Source: a virus. From it: a stretch of DNA of 64,000 nucleotides. The position numbers were made by a program, and so were the translations under genes. The stretch lies in the IMG/VR virus record IMGVR_UViG_3300009512_000010, positions 1 through 64,000 of that record. The stretch is one strand, 5' to 3'. The notes beneath the pieces are model-generated. The model was given only the letters and a program-made list of their open reading frames with translations, did no database searches and was not told the origin of the DNA. Every line of letters starts with the position of its first letter. Within the stretch, counting starts at the first letter, position 1. Shown here one piece after another: positions 25,029 to 29,534 of the stretch.

Positions 25029-25057
25029 TTTATAGGTGATTCGAATGATATTGTCAA
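25029..25057 (-). promoter_or_regulatory. sigma70 promoter with CGAATC spacer
   Basis: TTGACA (25052-25057), 17-base spacer with TTCGAATCA, TATAAA (25029-25034), minus strand; divergent from the plus-strand promoter at 25093. Confidence 0.75.
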
Positions 25058-25092
25058 CAGCTAATATAGCTAATATTCATATATTTTATGGG

Positions 25093-25121
25093 TTGACAGA
25101 ATCAGAGAATCTATGTATAAT
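25093..25121 (+). promoter_or_regulatory. sigma70 promoter of the plus-strand cassette
   Basis: TTGACA (25093-25098), 17-base spacer with two GAATC sites, TATAAT (25116-25121). A perfect consensus, 72 bases upstream of the radical SAM gene and the only convincing plus-strand early promoter in the window. Confidence 0.85.
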
Positions 25122-25193
25122 AAAGGATCAGCTTCGAACACAGGGAAAGGATATATTAATTGTCTATATACTCTGTAATGAAATGGAATACGT

Positions 25194-26096
25194 ATGTACT
25201 ATGAACTAGATCCTTCAATGAACGAGTTTAAGACTCTTTCTATACAGACCACGTATAAGTGTCAACAGACATGCTCCAACTGCTATTTGGGTACGATGCT
25301 GAATAATGATAGTATACCAGACGTAGACCTTATTAAATTTGAAGACGCAATTTCAAGGTTGCCCAACAGAACTGATATTAGGTTTATTGGTGCCGAACCT
25401 ACAATGAACCCCAACCTAGTTAAATTGATTGGTATAGTAAGACGTAATGGGCACCGTCCATCATTACTTACCAATGGACTAAAGCTACGCCGTGAACCTT
25501 ATGCCCAAGAGTTAAAGAATTCTGGTTTAAACCTTCTAGGCATCTCTATGAATGGTGGACTAGATAATGATGTATATATGGACTTTGATAATGGCAAGTA
25601 TGCCAAGTCAAAGATGATTGCCCTTGAAAACATATTTAAAGTAAAAATGTTACCCCATATCAACGTAATCCTAGATCCAAGTAACGTACACATCGTAAAA
25701 CCATTGATCGACTATATTGTTGATATGGCTTTAAAGCATAATGTTAAGTTTAGTCCTACCAAGTTTCCTGTGATGATCCGACTAAAGTCTATAGGTAAGA
25801 TGGGTTTCTATAAGGATAGTCACACCTTCTCTATACACGAACTCAAAGATATTGTTACTGACTTGCATGGGGATGATATTAACTTCATAGATACTATAGA
25901 TGGTCACCTAGAGAAACGATCTCTCACATATAAGTTTCCTACTAGGGCTGGTATTATGTTAGGAAAGATCACTGATTGGACTGTGGATGATGATGGCATA
26001 CCAGACTCAGGCTCCACTAGACGTGGTATCTTAACAGATGATTATAAAGTCGCTCCATTCTTCGAGTATTACGATAAGGCACATAAAGAGACATGA
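25194..26096 (+). CDS. Radical SAM enzyme
   Basis: 300 aa. The 4Fe-4S/SAM motif Cx3Cx2C is at residues 23, 27 and 30 (KCQQTCSNCYLG). RFIGAEPTMNP follows at about 63-73 (the GGEP-like SAM-binding strand) and SLLTNGLKLR at about 90-100, so a TIM-barrel core is complete. The C-terminus has no Cys cluster, so no SPASM domain is seen. GGAA lies before the ATG. The next gene, a 2OG hydroxylase, starts within its stop codon (ATGA). Substrate unknown; peptide or nucleotide modification both possible. Confidence 0.88.
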   Translation: MYYELDPSMNEFKTLSIQTTYKCQQTCSNCYLGTMLNNDSIPDVDLIKFEDAISRLPNRTDIRFIGAEPTMNPNLVKLIGIVRRNGHRPSLLTNGLKLRREPYAQELKNSGLNLLGISMNGGLDNDVYMDFDNGKYAKSKMIALENIFKVKMLPHINVILDPSNVHIVKPLIDYIVDMALKHNVKFSPTKFPVMIRLKSIGKMGFYKDSHTFSIHELKDIVTDLHGDDINFIDTIDGHLEKRSLTYKFPTRAGIMLGKITDWTVDDDGIPDSGSTRRGILTDDYKVAPFFEYYDKAHKET

Positions 26097-26848
26097 AACA
26101 CTTTGAACGAACATGGCATCTAAAGATAGATACCAATATCATTAAAAAGATAATAGACGCTAATAGTGATAAGTTCGTGTGTCCGTTTTCCAACACTGAT
26201 AGCTATCTAAACATCTATAAGAATAGAGAGTGTGCGGTTCAGTTTTTTAATCTTCAAGAGTGTGATTATGACAGAGAGCCTAACAGAGACGGTACAAAGT
26301 ATATTAGATACTTAACAAGCGTAGAGCATAAGTTGGGTAATAAGGATACTGTGGAGTTTCTCAAGACTAACAAGGATAAATTTCAAGTTGAAACAAACGA
26401 AGAAAACTTTGTTATACCATCAAAAGATCCTGATGTAAGGAAGTTCCTAATAGATCTGAATTCTATGTGGGCATTTGATGGAAGCCAAAGACCCAAGGGT
26501 AATATCTGTAGAGCACGAATCGTAAGACTTCCGTCTGGTGGTACAATGCCTTATCACAGAGATGAGACTGCCTCTAAGAACATTCGAGTTATATGTCCTA
26601 TCGTCACACATCCAGATGTGAAGAATGCCTTTCGAGATGTTGATGGTGAAAAGTTATATGAATTCCCAGCAACTGGTCATTTCTATACGTTTGAAGAGGA
26701 CAAGATAGAGCATGCGGTCTTCAACAACTCAGAGATTGATAGGTACGCTTTAATCTTTACAGTAGTTGATGTCACTGACCTAAAGGAATGGGACAGAGCA
26801 TATAAAAAAAATGATATGTTTTGGAAGGCTTGGTCTCGTGGAATCTAA
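26093..26848 (+). CDS. 2OG-Fe(II) oxygenase, aspartyl/asparaginyl beta-hydroxylase-like
   Basis: 251 aa. RIVRLPSGGTMPYHRDE gives the iron ligands His155 and Asp157; EHAVFNNSEIDRYALIF gives His217 and the 2-oxoglutarate Arg227. Spacing and the LPSGG..PxHxD context match the Asp/Asn beta-hydroxylase family. It would hydroxylate a protein, peptide or amino-acid side chain. Coupled to the radical SAM gene upstream and overlapping the acetyltransferase gene downstream. Confidence 0.82.
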   Translation: MKHFERTWHLKIDTNIIKKIIDANSDKFVCPFSNTDSYLNIYKNRECAVQFFNLQECDYDREPNRDGTKYIRYLTSVEHKLGNKDTVEFLKTNKDKFQVETNEENFVIPSKDPDVRKFLIDLNSMWAFDGSQRPKGNICRARIVRLPSGGTMPYHRDETASKNIRVICPIVTHPDVKNAFRDVDGEKLYEFPATGHFYTFEEDKIEHAVFNNSEIDRYALIFTVVDVTDLKEWDRAYKKNDMFWKAWSRGI

Positions 26849-27329
26849 ACTAATCACAGATAAGACAATAGCCAAGCACATCTTTACTCAGGGAAATCTA
26901 ACTGAAGATAAGAATAGCGAGAACTACACTTTAGCAGAGTTTGAAAAGGGTTGGAAATCTTGGACAGCATTCTTTGTATTGTATGATGGACATGATACAG
27001 TAGCCTTTTGTGGAGTTCGTAAGTTTGGTGACAGATATGTACGAGTCTTCGATAGGTACTTTGTGTTCCCCGAATATAGAAGACTTGGATTAAACAATGC
27101 CGAACACTCTATGCAAATGATAAAACAACAGCTAAACTTCACAGATGGGCGGACACCATTCTTTTCTATAGAGAGTAGTCGAAGTGCGGTTATACGTGCA
27201 GTACGTAAGTTTAATACTGTTATAGATAATAGAGACCACTTCCAAGTTCTGGATGGTCTATATAACACAGCAGGTAGTAGCATGCAACATATTGCTATAA
27301 AAAAACCACACACAACTATCAACTTATAG
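26838..27329 (+). CDS. GNAT-family N-acetyltransferase-like protein
   Basis: 163 aa from a GTG at 26838, preceded by GGAAGG at nine bases; an ATG at 26811 in the same frame has no ribosome site. VRVFDRYFVFPEYRRLGLNN gives the GNAT motif A region (R-x-x-G-L), with FFVLYDGHDTVAFCGVRKFG before it. Cys/Arg-rich phage-type GNATs of this kind are common in marine viruses. Substrate unknown; in this cassette it may act on the same molecule as the hydroxylases. Confidence 0.65.
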   Translation: MESKLITDKTIAKHIFTQGNLTEDKNSENYTLAEFEKGWKSWTAFFVLYDGHDTVAFCGVRKFGDRYVRVFDRYFVFPEYRRLGLNNAEHSMQMIKQQLNFTDGRTPFFSIESSRSAVIRAVRKFNTVIDNRDHFQVLDGLYNTAGSSMQHIAIKKPHTTINL

Positions 27330-27341
27330 GAGGATAGAAAT

Positions 27342-27647
27342 ATGCCTTTTACCGAAGTAAGCAAATTTACTAAAGCAGACACCACTTGGGACAACACAAA
27401 TCAAGCTTTTGATGAACTCAAGACGGATATTATGGTGAGCGAAACATTTATCGAGTCTAAAACGGCGGCAGATGCTAACGTATTATCTGAGATTGTCAGT
27501 CTGAATGAAGAGGGTACTGAGCTAATCATCACTAAGACTTGGGATGAAGAAGCATCTTATACTGCATATATGGCTTCAGTATCGAGTCACCTCGCAGATA
27601 TACAATCCAATTTAGAAGCTTATGGGTGGACTGAGACTGATGAGTAG
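27342..27647 (+). CDS. Small acidic protein of the modification cassette
   Basis: 101 aa with the strongest ribosome site of the cassette (AGGAGG). Acidic, no Cys. EIVSLNEEGTELIITKTWDE followed by EASYTAYMASV resembles a small dimeric alpha-beta barrel (monooxygenase-like) subunit. It is the only protein in the cassette without an obvious catalytic motif, so it may be the modified substrate, a carrier or a small oxygenase subunit. Stop and next start overlap (ATGAGTAG). Confidence 0.6.
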   Translation: MPFTEVSKFTKADTTWDNTNQAFDELKTDIMVSETFIESKTAADANVLSEIVSLNEEGTELIITKTWDEEASYTAYMASVSSHLADIQSNLEAYGWTETDE

Positions 27648-28203
27648 CTTTAAAAGGCTTAACTTAGACCCATATCCTAATTTGTTATCAGAACTAAATG
27701 AACTAGATTTAAAATTCAAATCGAATCAAATTTGTTTAAACACTACTGTGGATAAGCCTGATGATTATCTCTTAGGTTGCGGATCTCTATATTATGATTG
27801 GAGTACCGCTAAACGAAATGATAAGAACGAACTTATTAGTGTAGATGTTTGGGATAACCCCCTAACAGAATCAGACTTTACGGAGTTCTGTTCAGTATTT
27901 TCTGGAACTACATTTGAAAGATTGTACAGAGACATCTCTTCTCAGTATGAGGTGGGTCGTGTTCGTATAATGAACCTAGCCCCTGGAAGAGTTATGACAT
28001 GGCATCTTGATGATAGCCCTCGTTTACATTATCCATTTAAAACTCAAGAGGGTTGTTCTATGGTAATTGATAATGAAGTAATGCATTTAGATCAAGACGT
28101 GTGGTGGTGGACAGATACCACAAAGCATCATACAGCGTTTAATGCAAGTGGAGAAAGTAGATACCACATAGTTGCGGCTCTACTCAAACCTACCATCAGT
28201 TAA
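27640..28203 (+). CDS. 2OG-Fe(II) oxygenase, second aspartyl-hydroxylase-like copy
   Basis: 187 aa from the ATG at 27640, which overlaps the upstream stop. MNLAPGRVMTWHLDDSPRLH gives His112/Asp114; TKHHTAFNASGESRYHIV gives the distal His154 and Arg164, ten residues apart exactly as in the first copy. It is a paralogue in mechanism but only weakly alike in sequence. The last gene of the plus-strand cassette, it overlaps the convergent sulfotransferase-like gene by 24 bases. Confidence 0.8.
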   Translation: MSSFKRLNLDPYPNLLSELNELDLKFKSNQICLNTTVDKPDDYLLGCGSLYYDWSTAKRNDKNELISVDVWDNPLTESDFTEFCSVFSGTTFERLYRDISSQYEVGRVRIMNLAPGRVMTWHLDDSPRLHYPFKTQEGCSMVIDNEVMHLDQDVWWWTDTTKHHTAFNASGESRYHIVAALLKPTIS

Positions 28204-28986
28204 TGATGTGATACGTTCTCTTACTTGATCGTAGTTGGTGATTAGAGAACTGTAGTCATTATCAAGCTTTATAGGTGTGCTTGATGGCACATCCTCTTTC
28301 CACTCATCACTACCAGCAATATTAGAAATGCACTCATCGATTTTACATTGATCGTCTAGGTCTTCGTAATAAACAACTCTGATATCCTTAACAGTGTTAC
28401 GAAGGTTATAGAGGGTTCCTACCTTATCCATGAATGGCTTAATCTGATTTAATGTTTCTTTATTGATCGTCACTGGTTGTGCAGATTTATTTTTATACAA
28501 CTCTTCGTGACCCACTGTCATGTGAAACATTTTAATCTGAGTTGCAAATAGCGTACTGCAAACGAGTTCTGTTACATCATTTCGAAGTGTGAGTACTATA
28601 TCATAGTCTCGAAAGAAGTCTAGCGTTTCGTCTATAGCATCTGCTATGTTATACGTCCCTTTAATATAATACTCATTACCACTCTGTCGTGCTTGAGCAA
28701 GTAACTTCAGCTTACTCAACACACTTGTCTTATTATCCTTATAGACGTGTGGGTAGATATAATGAATGTCCATAGACTTATCAGTCATTATAGGATGCAT
28801 CTCCATCAAATACTTTTCACCTGTCTTATGGTCTGTCATTGTCTTGTTCTGTAGGGTGTGCAGAAAGGGTTCGCTATGACCAACCAAAGGCAAAAGCTTA
28901 GTGTGCTTCATGACAAAGGGTTTTAGCGATTCGTATAATATGGTACTTCTAGTTCTTGGTGGGCAGATAAAAAAAGGTTTTTTCAC
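28180..28986 (-). CDS. Sulfotransferase-like P-loop protein
   Basis: 268 aa. FFICPPRTRSTILYESL at residues 5-21 is the 5'-phosphosulfate-binding loop type (PPRSGST in PAPS sulfotransferases). DIVLTLRNDVTELVCSTLFA at about 133-152 matches the 3'-phosphate-binding RxP..xxxS region. It lies against the 2OG/radical SAM cassette on the opposite strand and is coupled by ATGA to a third oxygenase. It may sulfate a hydroxyl made by these enzymes; that link is inference. Confidence 0.7.
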   Translation of the reverse strand: MKKPFFICPPRTRSTILYESLKPFVMKHTKLLPLVGHSEPFLHTLQNKTMTDHKTGEKYLMEMHPIMTDKSMDIHYIYPHVYKDNKTSVLSKLKLLAQARQSGNEYYIKGTYNIADAIDETLDFFRDYDIVLTLRNDVTELVCSTLFATQIKMFHMTVGHEELYKNKSAQPVTINKETLNQIKPFMDKVGTLYNLRNTVKDIRVVYYEDLDDQCKIDECISNIAGSDEWKEDVPSSTPIKLDNDYSSLITNYDQVRERITSLTDGRFE

Positions 28987-29534
28987 GGACAGAGTGGTCC
29001 TTTACGCTCATGAAATGCCAATACACTAGGTCTAATGATTAAAGCTATTCTAGGTCTAGTAATACCCACAACCCTATGAGGAGTTTTTACATTAATCCTA
29101 AACCATGAGTTGGGAACTTCTTGGATCGTCTTAATCAAAGTACGTCCTTCGATGTCAATACCCTCACCCTCTATACTACCACCCTCTATAGGATCATCAT
29201 CCAATTCGCTATAGAATTCAGTCTTAACATCGTCACCACCTGTATCAGTCAAATAAAGATACTTGTCTGAACTCGTTCCCCAATCATAATGAATAGGTAG
29301 ATCCCCAGTAACTACCTGCCACCTAACAGCAACTTTATATGGGAAGTGTGATTGATATTGCTCAAACAACTCATCAGAAACGTCATAGACAGAAAAGATA
29401 CTTTCTTTTTCTGGATCTATATTACCTGTTTGAGATCTTTCATACGTCCATTTAATAGCATCTAAGGCCAAGATGTCATTAGGATTCGGTGGCGGTAAGA
29501 ATTCGATGTCAGAATGATAACGGTCATCGCCCAT
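28983..29534 (-). CDS. 2OG-Fe(II) oxygenase-like protein, third copy
   Basis: 183 aa. VVTGDLPIHYDWGTSSDKYL gives His82/Asp84; INVKTPHRVVGITRPRIALI gives the distal His153 and candidate 2OG-binding Arg160 or Arg162. An acidic insert (about 95-130) separates the motifs. It runs into the sulfotransferase-like gene (ATGA overlap), suggesting coordinate expression. Confidence 0.72.
   Translation of the reverse strand: MGDDRYHSDIEFLPPPNPNDILALDAIKWTYERSQTGNIDPEKESIFSVYDVSDELFEQYQSHFPYKVAVRWQVVTGDLPIHYDWGTSSDKYLYLTDTGGDDVKTEFYSELDDDPIEGGSIEGEGIDIEGRTLIKTIQEVPNSWFRINVKTPHRVVGITRPRIALIIRPSVLAFHERKGPLCP

Follow-up and report, generated by a model that had tools for sequence, protein, structure and literature searches.

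Comparison of gene neighbourhoods showed that, in many marine viruses, the gene for a radical SAM enzyme (rSAM) is tightly linked to those for one 2OG oxygenase and a GNAT-fold protein, the three constituting an operon of overlapping genes, and that the pairing of rSAM with a PF05118-type oxygenase also occurs in some bacteria. Since this trio is intact in dozens of further, likewise uncultivated marine viruses and the rSAM-oxygenase pair is present in a few bacteria, it probably represents a real, uncharacterised biosynthetic pathway and not a random gene collection. The window, i.e., the whole analysed stretch of DNA, covers the initial 64 kb of a viral record of 159,934 bases (ca. 160 kb) originating from an uncultivated marine phage, which is T4-like and has T4-type baseplate genes.

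The genes of the cassette and their promoter are summarized in Table 1. All seven genes, their overlaps and the promoter were located at the positions claimed by a previous sequence-only reading. Neighbouring ORFs mostly overlap by 4 to 38 nt, so that the earlier description of five overlapping plus-strand genes applies to most pairs, but not to GNAT and p101, which are separated by the sole gap (12 nt). Translation probably starts at GTG 26838 for GNAT and at ATG 27640 for OX2, since the N-termini of relatives point to these positions. A further ORF (25036-25209) was rejected as a gene, as it looks non-coding and shows three nonsynonymous and no synonymous differences in comparison to the related locus L002.

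Table 1. Features of the cassette in the window.
Feature	Position	Strand	Evidence
Sigma70-type promoter TTGACA-17-TATAAT	25093-25121	+	perfect match
rSAM (radical SAM enzyme), core gene 1	25194-26096	+	PF04055 1.7e-10; CX3CX2C
OX1 (2OG/Fe(II) oxygenase, Asp/Asn-hydroxylase-like), core gene 2	26093-26848	+	PF05118 3.5e-4; motif alignment
GNAT-fold protein, core gene 3	26838-27329 (longer ORF from ATG 26811)	+	AlphaFold and Foldseek
p101 (101-aa acidic protein)	27342-27647	+	predicted ABM/ferredoxin-like fold
OX2 (2OG/Fe(II) oxygenase)	27640-28203 (longer ORF from 27622)	+	PF05118 2.4e-8
ST (sulfotransferase-like)	28180-28986	-	PPRTRST motif only
OX3 (2OG oxygenase-like)	28983-29534	-	HxD...H...R motif

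In total, 50 viral loci were retrieved by an rSAM profile search and reduced to a non-redundant set of 29 viral rSAMs sharing less than 97% identity. Clustering of all neighbouring ORFs revealed the order rSAM, 2OG oxygenase, GNAT. A 2OG oxygenase is encoded directly downstream of rSAM in 27 of 28 non-redundant viral loci (L066, without downstream sequence, was left out), representing the PF05118-like (Asp-hydroxylase) type in nine and the TauD type in 18 cases. In the exception, L051, GNAT comes first and is followed by a protein with an oxygenase-like motif; this viral island also harbors a desaturase. GNAT, counted within seven genes of rSAM, follows in 23 of 27 loci (L060, a cut contig, was left out). 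Among the loci without a counted GNAT, L034 and L037 carry a homologue on the opposite strand, L075 encodes a protein that resembles GNAT only on visual inspection, and the contig of L035 is short. As a guard against circularity, searches were restarted from GNAT (24 loci) and OX1 (eight loci), and rSAM and an oxygenase were found at every locus with enough upstream sequence. The eight viral relatives of OX1 that were retrieved all adjoin rSAM, and the trio is complete wherever the contig extends far enough, except that a GNAT match is missing at L122. On the rSAM tree, the oxygenase slot switched between the AspH and TauD types at least three times, at least two of these switches being forced by well-supported branches. 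The operon slot can be occupied by either of two unrelated families of oxygenases. The linkage is not absolute, since at L132 TauD and GNAT are encoded but this rSAM is absent from the stretch covered.

The linkage of the trio across lineages supports the sequence-only reading in its proposal of a linked modification or biosynthesis pathway. Co-occurrence of all five plus-strand genes, as also considered there, holds for the core trio, but the five-gene set was found only among close relatives. Independent occurrence, which would speak against a common pathway, was observed for OX2 (alone in L019-L023), whereas linkage of the trio is near universal. Furthermore, the statement that no such set was known from phages was supported: the proteins tried had no match among cultured phages (50,697 records) and plasmid records, and the operon was not found in searches of the open-access literature.

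Within a bacterial genome collection, one match with phage-like patterns was obtained, namely a Bdellovibrionales MAG encoding rSAM, rSAM, TauD, PF05118 and GNAT proteins. The rSAM family was detected by profile search in 6 of 144 genomes of the class to which this MAG belongs. A PF05118-type oxygenase is encoded near the bacterial rSAM at L076, L088, L089, L090, L092, L093 and L094; the exception without oxygenase, L091, lies on a 4.8-kb contig ending 0.8 kb upstream of rSAM. In several Bdellovibrionota loci the operon also encodes a fatty-acid desaturase and the uncharacterised protein cl2, and at L090 the desaturase (PF00487, 2.1e-13) is accompanied by a nearby FeeM-like N-acyl amino acid synthase match below the cut-off (3e-4). 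The GNAT family is present at L076 as the sole bacterial locus, where no desaturase is encoded. No sequence homology was found between the phage GNAT and the bacterial proteins cl2 and cl4, and such a relationship was rejected.

Its Pfam match places rSAM in the radical SAM superfamily, and C23, C27 and C30 are invariant across 25 aligned sequences. No conserved cysteine beyond CX3CX2C was found in the 25-member family alignment, and a SPASM or twitch domain is absent. The closest solved relatives in profile searches are the tetraether lipid synthase Tes (7tol, 1e-20), BlsE (7vob, 5e-10), SkfB (1e-8) and MoaA (1e-7). Tes and BlsE have the radical SAM core in common with the window's rSAM, but the match is confined to this domain and lies far under NCBIfam cut-offs. 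Likewise, rSAM is neither a MoaA (ca. 42 bits vs. cut-offs of 231-325, second Cys cluster absent) nor a viperin (32 bits vs. a cut-off of 180) according to NCBIfam. Prokaryotic viperins (pVip) show similarity in the radical SAM core (PADLOC, 1.5e-11), and we know of no linkage of viperins to a 2OG oxygenase or GNAT; a role in defence was rejected, the similarity to viperin being generic only. The GNAT-fold protein matches Pfam weakly (1.7e-3). Its AlphaFold model (pLDDT 89) yielded 67 PDB matches with E <= 0.001 in Foldseek (e.g., 1tiq, 2e-5), and the matches listed are GNAT-type acetyltransferases, which confirms the GNAT fold. The R/QxxGxG/A acyl-CoA motif reads RRLGLN in the window and is not kept in relatives according to the family alignment.

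Concerning the oxygenases, OX2 exceeds the PF05118 cut-off of 22.6 bits (34.4 bits), while OX1 lies slightly under it (20.9 bits). The HxD, H and R residues of PF05118-type 2OG oxygenases are conserved in both (H155xD157, H207 and R217 in the OX1 family alignment). The closest solved relative of OX1 and OX2 in family-profile searches is the caprazamycin beta-hydroxylase Cpz10 (7v4f, 3e-21), which hydroxylates a nucleoside-antibiotic intermediate (PMC9814697). Cpz10 and L-proline cis-4-hydroxylase (4p7w), which rank best among the solved relatives, share the PF05118-type fold and HxD...H plus Arg with OX1 and OX2, but are remote in sequence and act on nucleoside-antibiotic and free-amino-acid substrates, respectively. 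To our knowledge, neither is paired with this rSAM family. For OX3, no Pfam match was obtained; its previous designation as a third HxD...H oxygenase is supported by H82xD84...H153...R162, kept in a 33%-identical relative (L044), and, weakly, by a profile match to a different family of oxygenases. At the L044 and L045 islands, the gene of the OX3 relative shares an overlap with that of a PF03567 sulfotransferase (6.7e-5, above the cut-off), so that an OX3-sulfotransferase pairing may be recurrent; at L044 both genes adjoin the trio. For ST itself, found only in the window's close clade, the label is at motif level, PPRTRST near the N-terminus resembling a 5'-phosphosulfate-binding loop. Membership of a sulfotransferase family gained no support from Pfam, NCBIfam, PHROGs or PDB, and 'sulfotransferase' is for this reason the weakest label of the cassette.

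The small protein p101 (pI 4.05, no Cys) has the best ribosome site of the cassette (aggagg just 5' of ATG), as reported before. Its AlphaFold model (pLDDT 72, moderate confidence) shows a predicted beta-alpha-beta-beta-alpha-beta topology and is best matched by dimeric ABM/ferredoxin-like proteins, namely PA0709, Rv0793 and two from uncultured marine organisms. Moreover, no p101 was found outside the window's near clade, and the protein is missing from loci with an intact trio (e.g., L032, L036); at L032, another putative oxygenase takes its place. Together with OX2 and ST it accompanies the trio only in the close clade (L001-L003, L005). It is the fastest-diverging, lineage-specific gene of the cassette: relative to L002, dS is 0.16 and dN 0.12, compared with dS of 0.01-0.05 in the flanking genes, a difference pointing to local allele exchange. 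A Pfam match to a minor capsid protein (3.5e-3, below cut-off) was taken as chance. A pathway centred on the 101-aa protein, as originally envisaged, is not sustained by these results. What remains is the weaker observation of a small protein amid the enzymes, as family c4 (acidic, ca. 100 aa) adjoins GNAT in many relatives; c4 was also found without the trio, beside other oxygenase genes. Homology between p101 and c4 has no sequence-profile support, though both are acidic and of about 100 aa.

The promoter was confirmed as a perfect sigma70 site of the cassette's own and is the only perfect plus-strand TTGACA-17-TATAAT in the 64 kb, four others being located on the minus strand. Of the 29 viral loci, 13 have sites matching at least 11 of 12 positions within 2.2 kb upstream of rSAM, six being perfect with 17-nt spacing (window, L032, L040, L060, L063, L067). 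Site density upstream of rSAM is 0.26 vs. 0.10 per strand-kb elsewhere, i.e., 2.5 times background. Strong sigma70-type promoters upstream suggest early expression by the host RNA polymerase.

Based on these results, we propose a phage-borne module that is expressed early and serves to synthesise or tailor a small molecule, perhaps an acylated amino acid- or lipid-like one, and give this reading an even chance. In such a module, a small host metabolite would be functionalised by rSAM at an unactivated carbon and hydroxylated by the oxygenase, and GNAT would acylate an amine. Additional hydroxyl and sulfate groups could be introduced by OX2, OX3 and the sulfotransferase-like enzyme in the window's clade, and the use of the module might, at a guess, lie in altering the host envelope or metabolism. 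The characterised relatives (Cpz10, proline cis-4-hydroxylase, BlsE, Tes) act mostly on small molecules or lipids; however, the nearest relatives are remote, with similarity mainly in the catalytic domains, and the peptide-modifying SkfB is among them. An acylated amino-acid or lipid-like product is favoured on account of the bacterial operons, which include a fatty-acid desaturase and in some cases a FeeM-like acyltransferase, although no sequence homologue of the phage GNAT was found in the desaturase operons. Tentatively, and with some doubt, the module may be a virus-encoded natural-product or modified-lipid pathway of early infection, in which the rSAM-oxygenase-GNAT core is customised by lineage with additional oxygenases and sulfotransferases. 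If true, no earlier secondary-metabolite module of this kind is known to us from phages.

The main rival of small-molecule biosynthesis is post-translational modification of a virion protein (tail fibre), a host protein or a small neighbouring protein by radical modification, hydroxylation and acylation. Modification of virion proteins is kept under consideration because the operon adjoins tail-fibre or other structural-like genes in many relatives, in addition to c4. Moreover, known PF05118 members include protein hydroxylases, an OX2 relative adjoins a putative virion protein in L018-L023, and radical SAM cassettes are described in a hypervariable host-recognition island of pelagimyophages (PMC7029224). 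Nevertheless, protein modification appears unlikely: the window's trio is not next to tail-fibre genes, no phage genes were noticed around the bacterial counterparts, c4 is also present at loci lacking the trio, and the promoters suggest early, not late, expression. It is also quite improbable that a hypervariable mobile island has packed independent tailoring enzymes of different pathways without a common product. This would explain why distant relatives with the trio do not retain OX2, OX3, ST and p101 beside it, why OX2 relatives occur amid unrelated radical SAM genes (L017) or without such a cassette (L019), and why the 160-kb record holds other radical SAM-rich islands, and for the accessory genes it is plausible. 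For the trio it is largely refuted, as the order rSAM-oxygenase-GNAT holds almost universally across deeply diverged lineages and persists when one oxygenase family is exchanged for another.

A RiPP pathway with p101 as precursor, in line with the RiPP-like character initially suggested, would fit the position of p101 between tailoring enzymes, its ribosome site and its fast divergence. It is highly improbable because rSAM is without SPASM/twitch cysteines; for the rSAM system, neither the auxiliary-cluster cysteines nor the precursor peptide of SPASM/twitch RiPP maturases were found. Furthermore, p101 is restricted to the near clade, predicted to be folded and devoid of Cys, and neither a transporter nor a protease was noticed in the cassette. 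As DNA bases are modified by radical SAM enzymes and acyltransferases in some phages, hypermodification of phage DNA via a thymidine derivative was weighed as well. This explanation has very little probability: PF00303 (thymidylate-synthase-like dUMP hydroxymethylase) was not found in the possibly incomplete 160-kb record, and the related genes in bacterial operons sit in a lipid-like context.

Among known systems, ornithine-lipid or N-acyl amino-acid lipid synthesis resembles the cassette by gene mix alone. The ornithine-lipid enzymes OlsB, OlsC and OlsE comprise a GNAT-type acyltransferase, a PF05118 oxygenase and a di-iron desaturase-like enzyme, but, unlike the trio, no radical SAM enzyme. 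Pelagimyophages are similar to the window's phage in being T4-like marine phages with radical SAM gene cassettes; these are located in a host-recognition cluster within a hypervariable tail-fibre island, and genes for stearoyl-CoA desaturase and Asp/Asn beta-hydroxylase are also noted in phages of this type (PMC7029224). The passages considered give no defined rSAM-oxygenase-GNAT operon, bacterial counterpart or function for the cassettes (PMC7029224). The window's trio, unlike them, lies outside such an island. Oxygenases, radical SAM enzymes and sulfotransferases are abundant in marine T4-like phages, where they mostly appear in lists as isolated auxiliary genes. In the present case, rSAM, an oxygenase and GNAT constitute a conserved and defined unit of three enzymes, for which counterparts exist in bacteria, so that the joint product of the three enzymes, encoded by three small genes, is directly testable.

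Relative to neighbouring genes, the gene of the 101-aa acidic protein shows locally raised synonymous and nonsynonymous differences from its counterparts in two loci of the window's close clade (L002 and L005). Relatives of OX2, the PF05118 2OG oxygenase, were also observed in other settings. One of these (L017, 51% identical) adjoins five radical SAM-like genes as well as an SDR-like and a methyltransferase-like gene. Another (L019, 42% identical) is located directly 3' of a putative virion protein gene and is followed by primase- and helicase-like genes; no cassette surrounds it. The same arrangement was observed in L018 and L020-L023. In three Bdellovibrionota loci (L088, L090, L092), genes encoding the radical SAM protein, a desaturase and PF05118 oxygenases are joined in operons, for which we know of no characterised product.

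Positions and gene content of the features described
Feature	Position	Other content
101-aa acidic protein	window 27342-27647 (+)	
Region with the OX2 relative, L017	L017:19-8567	
Region with the OX2 relative, L019	L019:6966-8333	
Very dense cassette, radical SAM 60% identical	L006:353-8452	about seven putative oxygenases, two sulfotransferase-like, two kinase-like, one GNAT
Tandem array of several radical SAM-like genes, whole record (G000), outside window	G000:C1:112000-123000	glycosyltransferase-like, oxygenase-like
Island, whole record, outside window	G000:C1:138000-153000	radical SAM, DegT-like, NodU-like, glycosyltransferase-like, ATP-pyrophosphatase-like

The second of the two regions outside the window adjoins tail-fibre-like genes. 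A gene set resembling this island adjoins the radical SAM, 2OG oxygenase and GNAT trio in three other loci (L040, L041, L043), whereas approximately 115 kb separate the two in the phage record.
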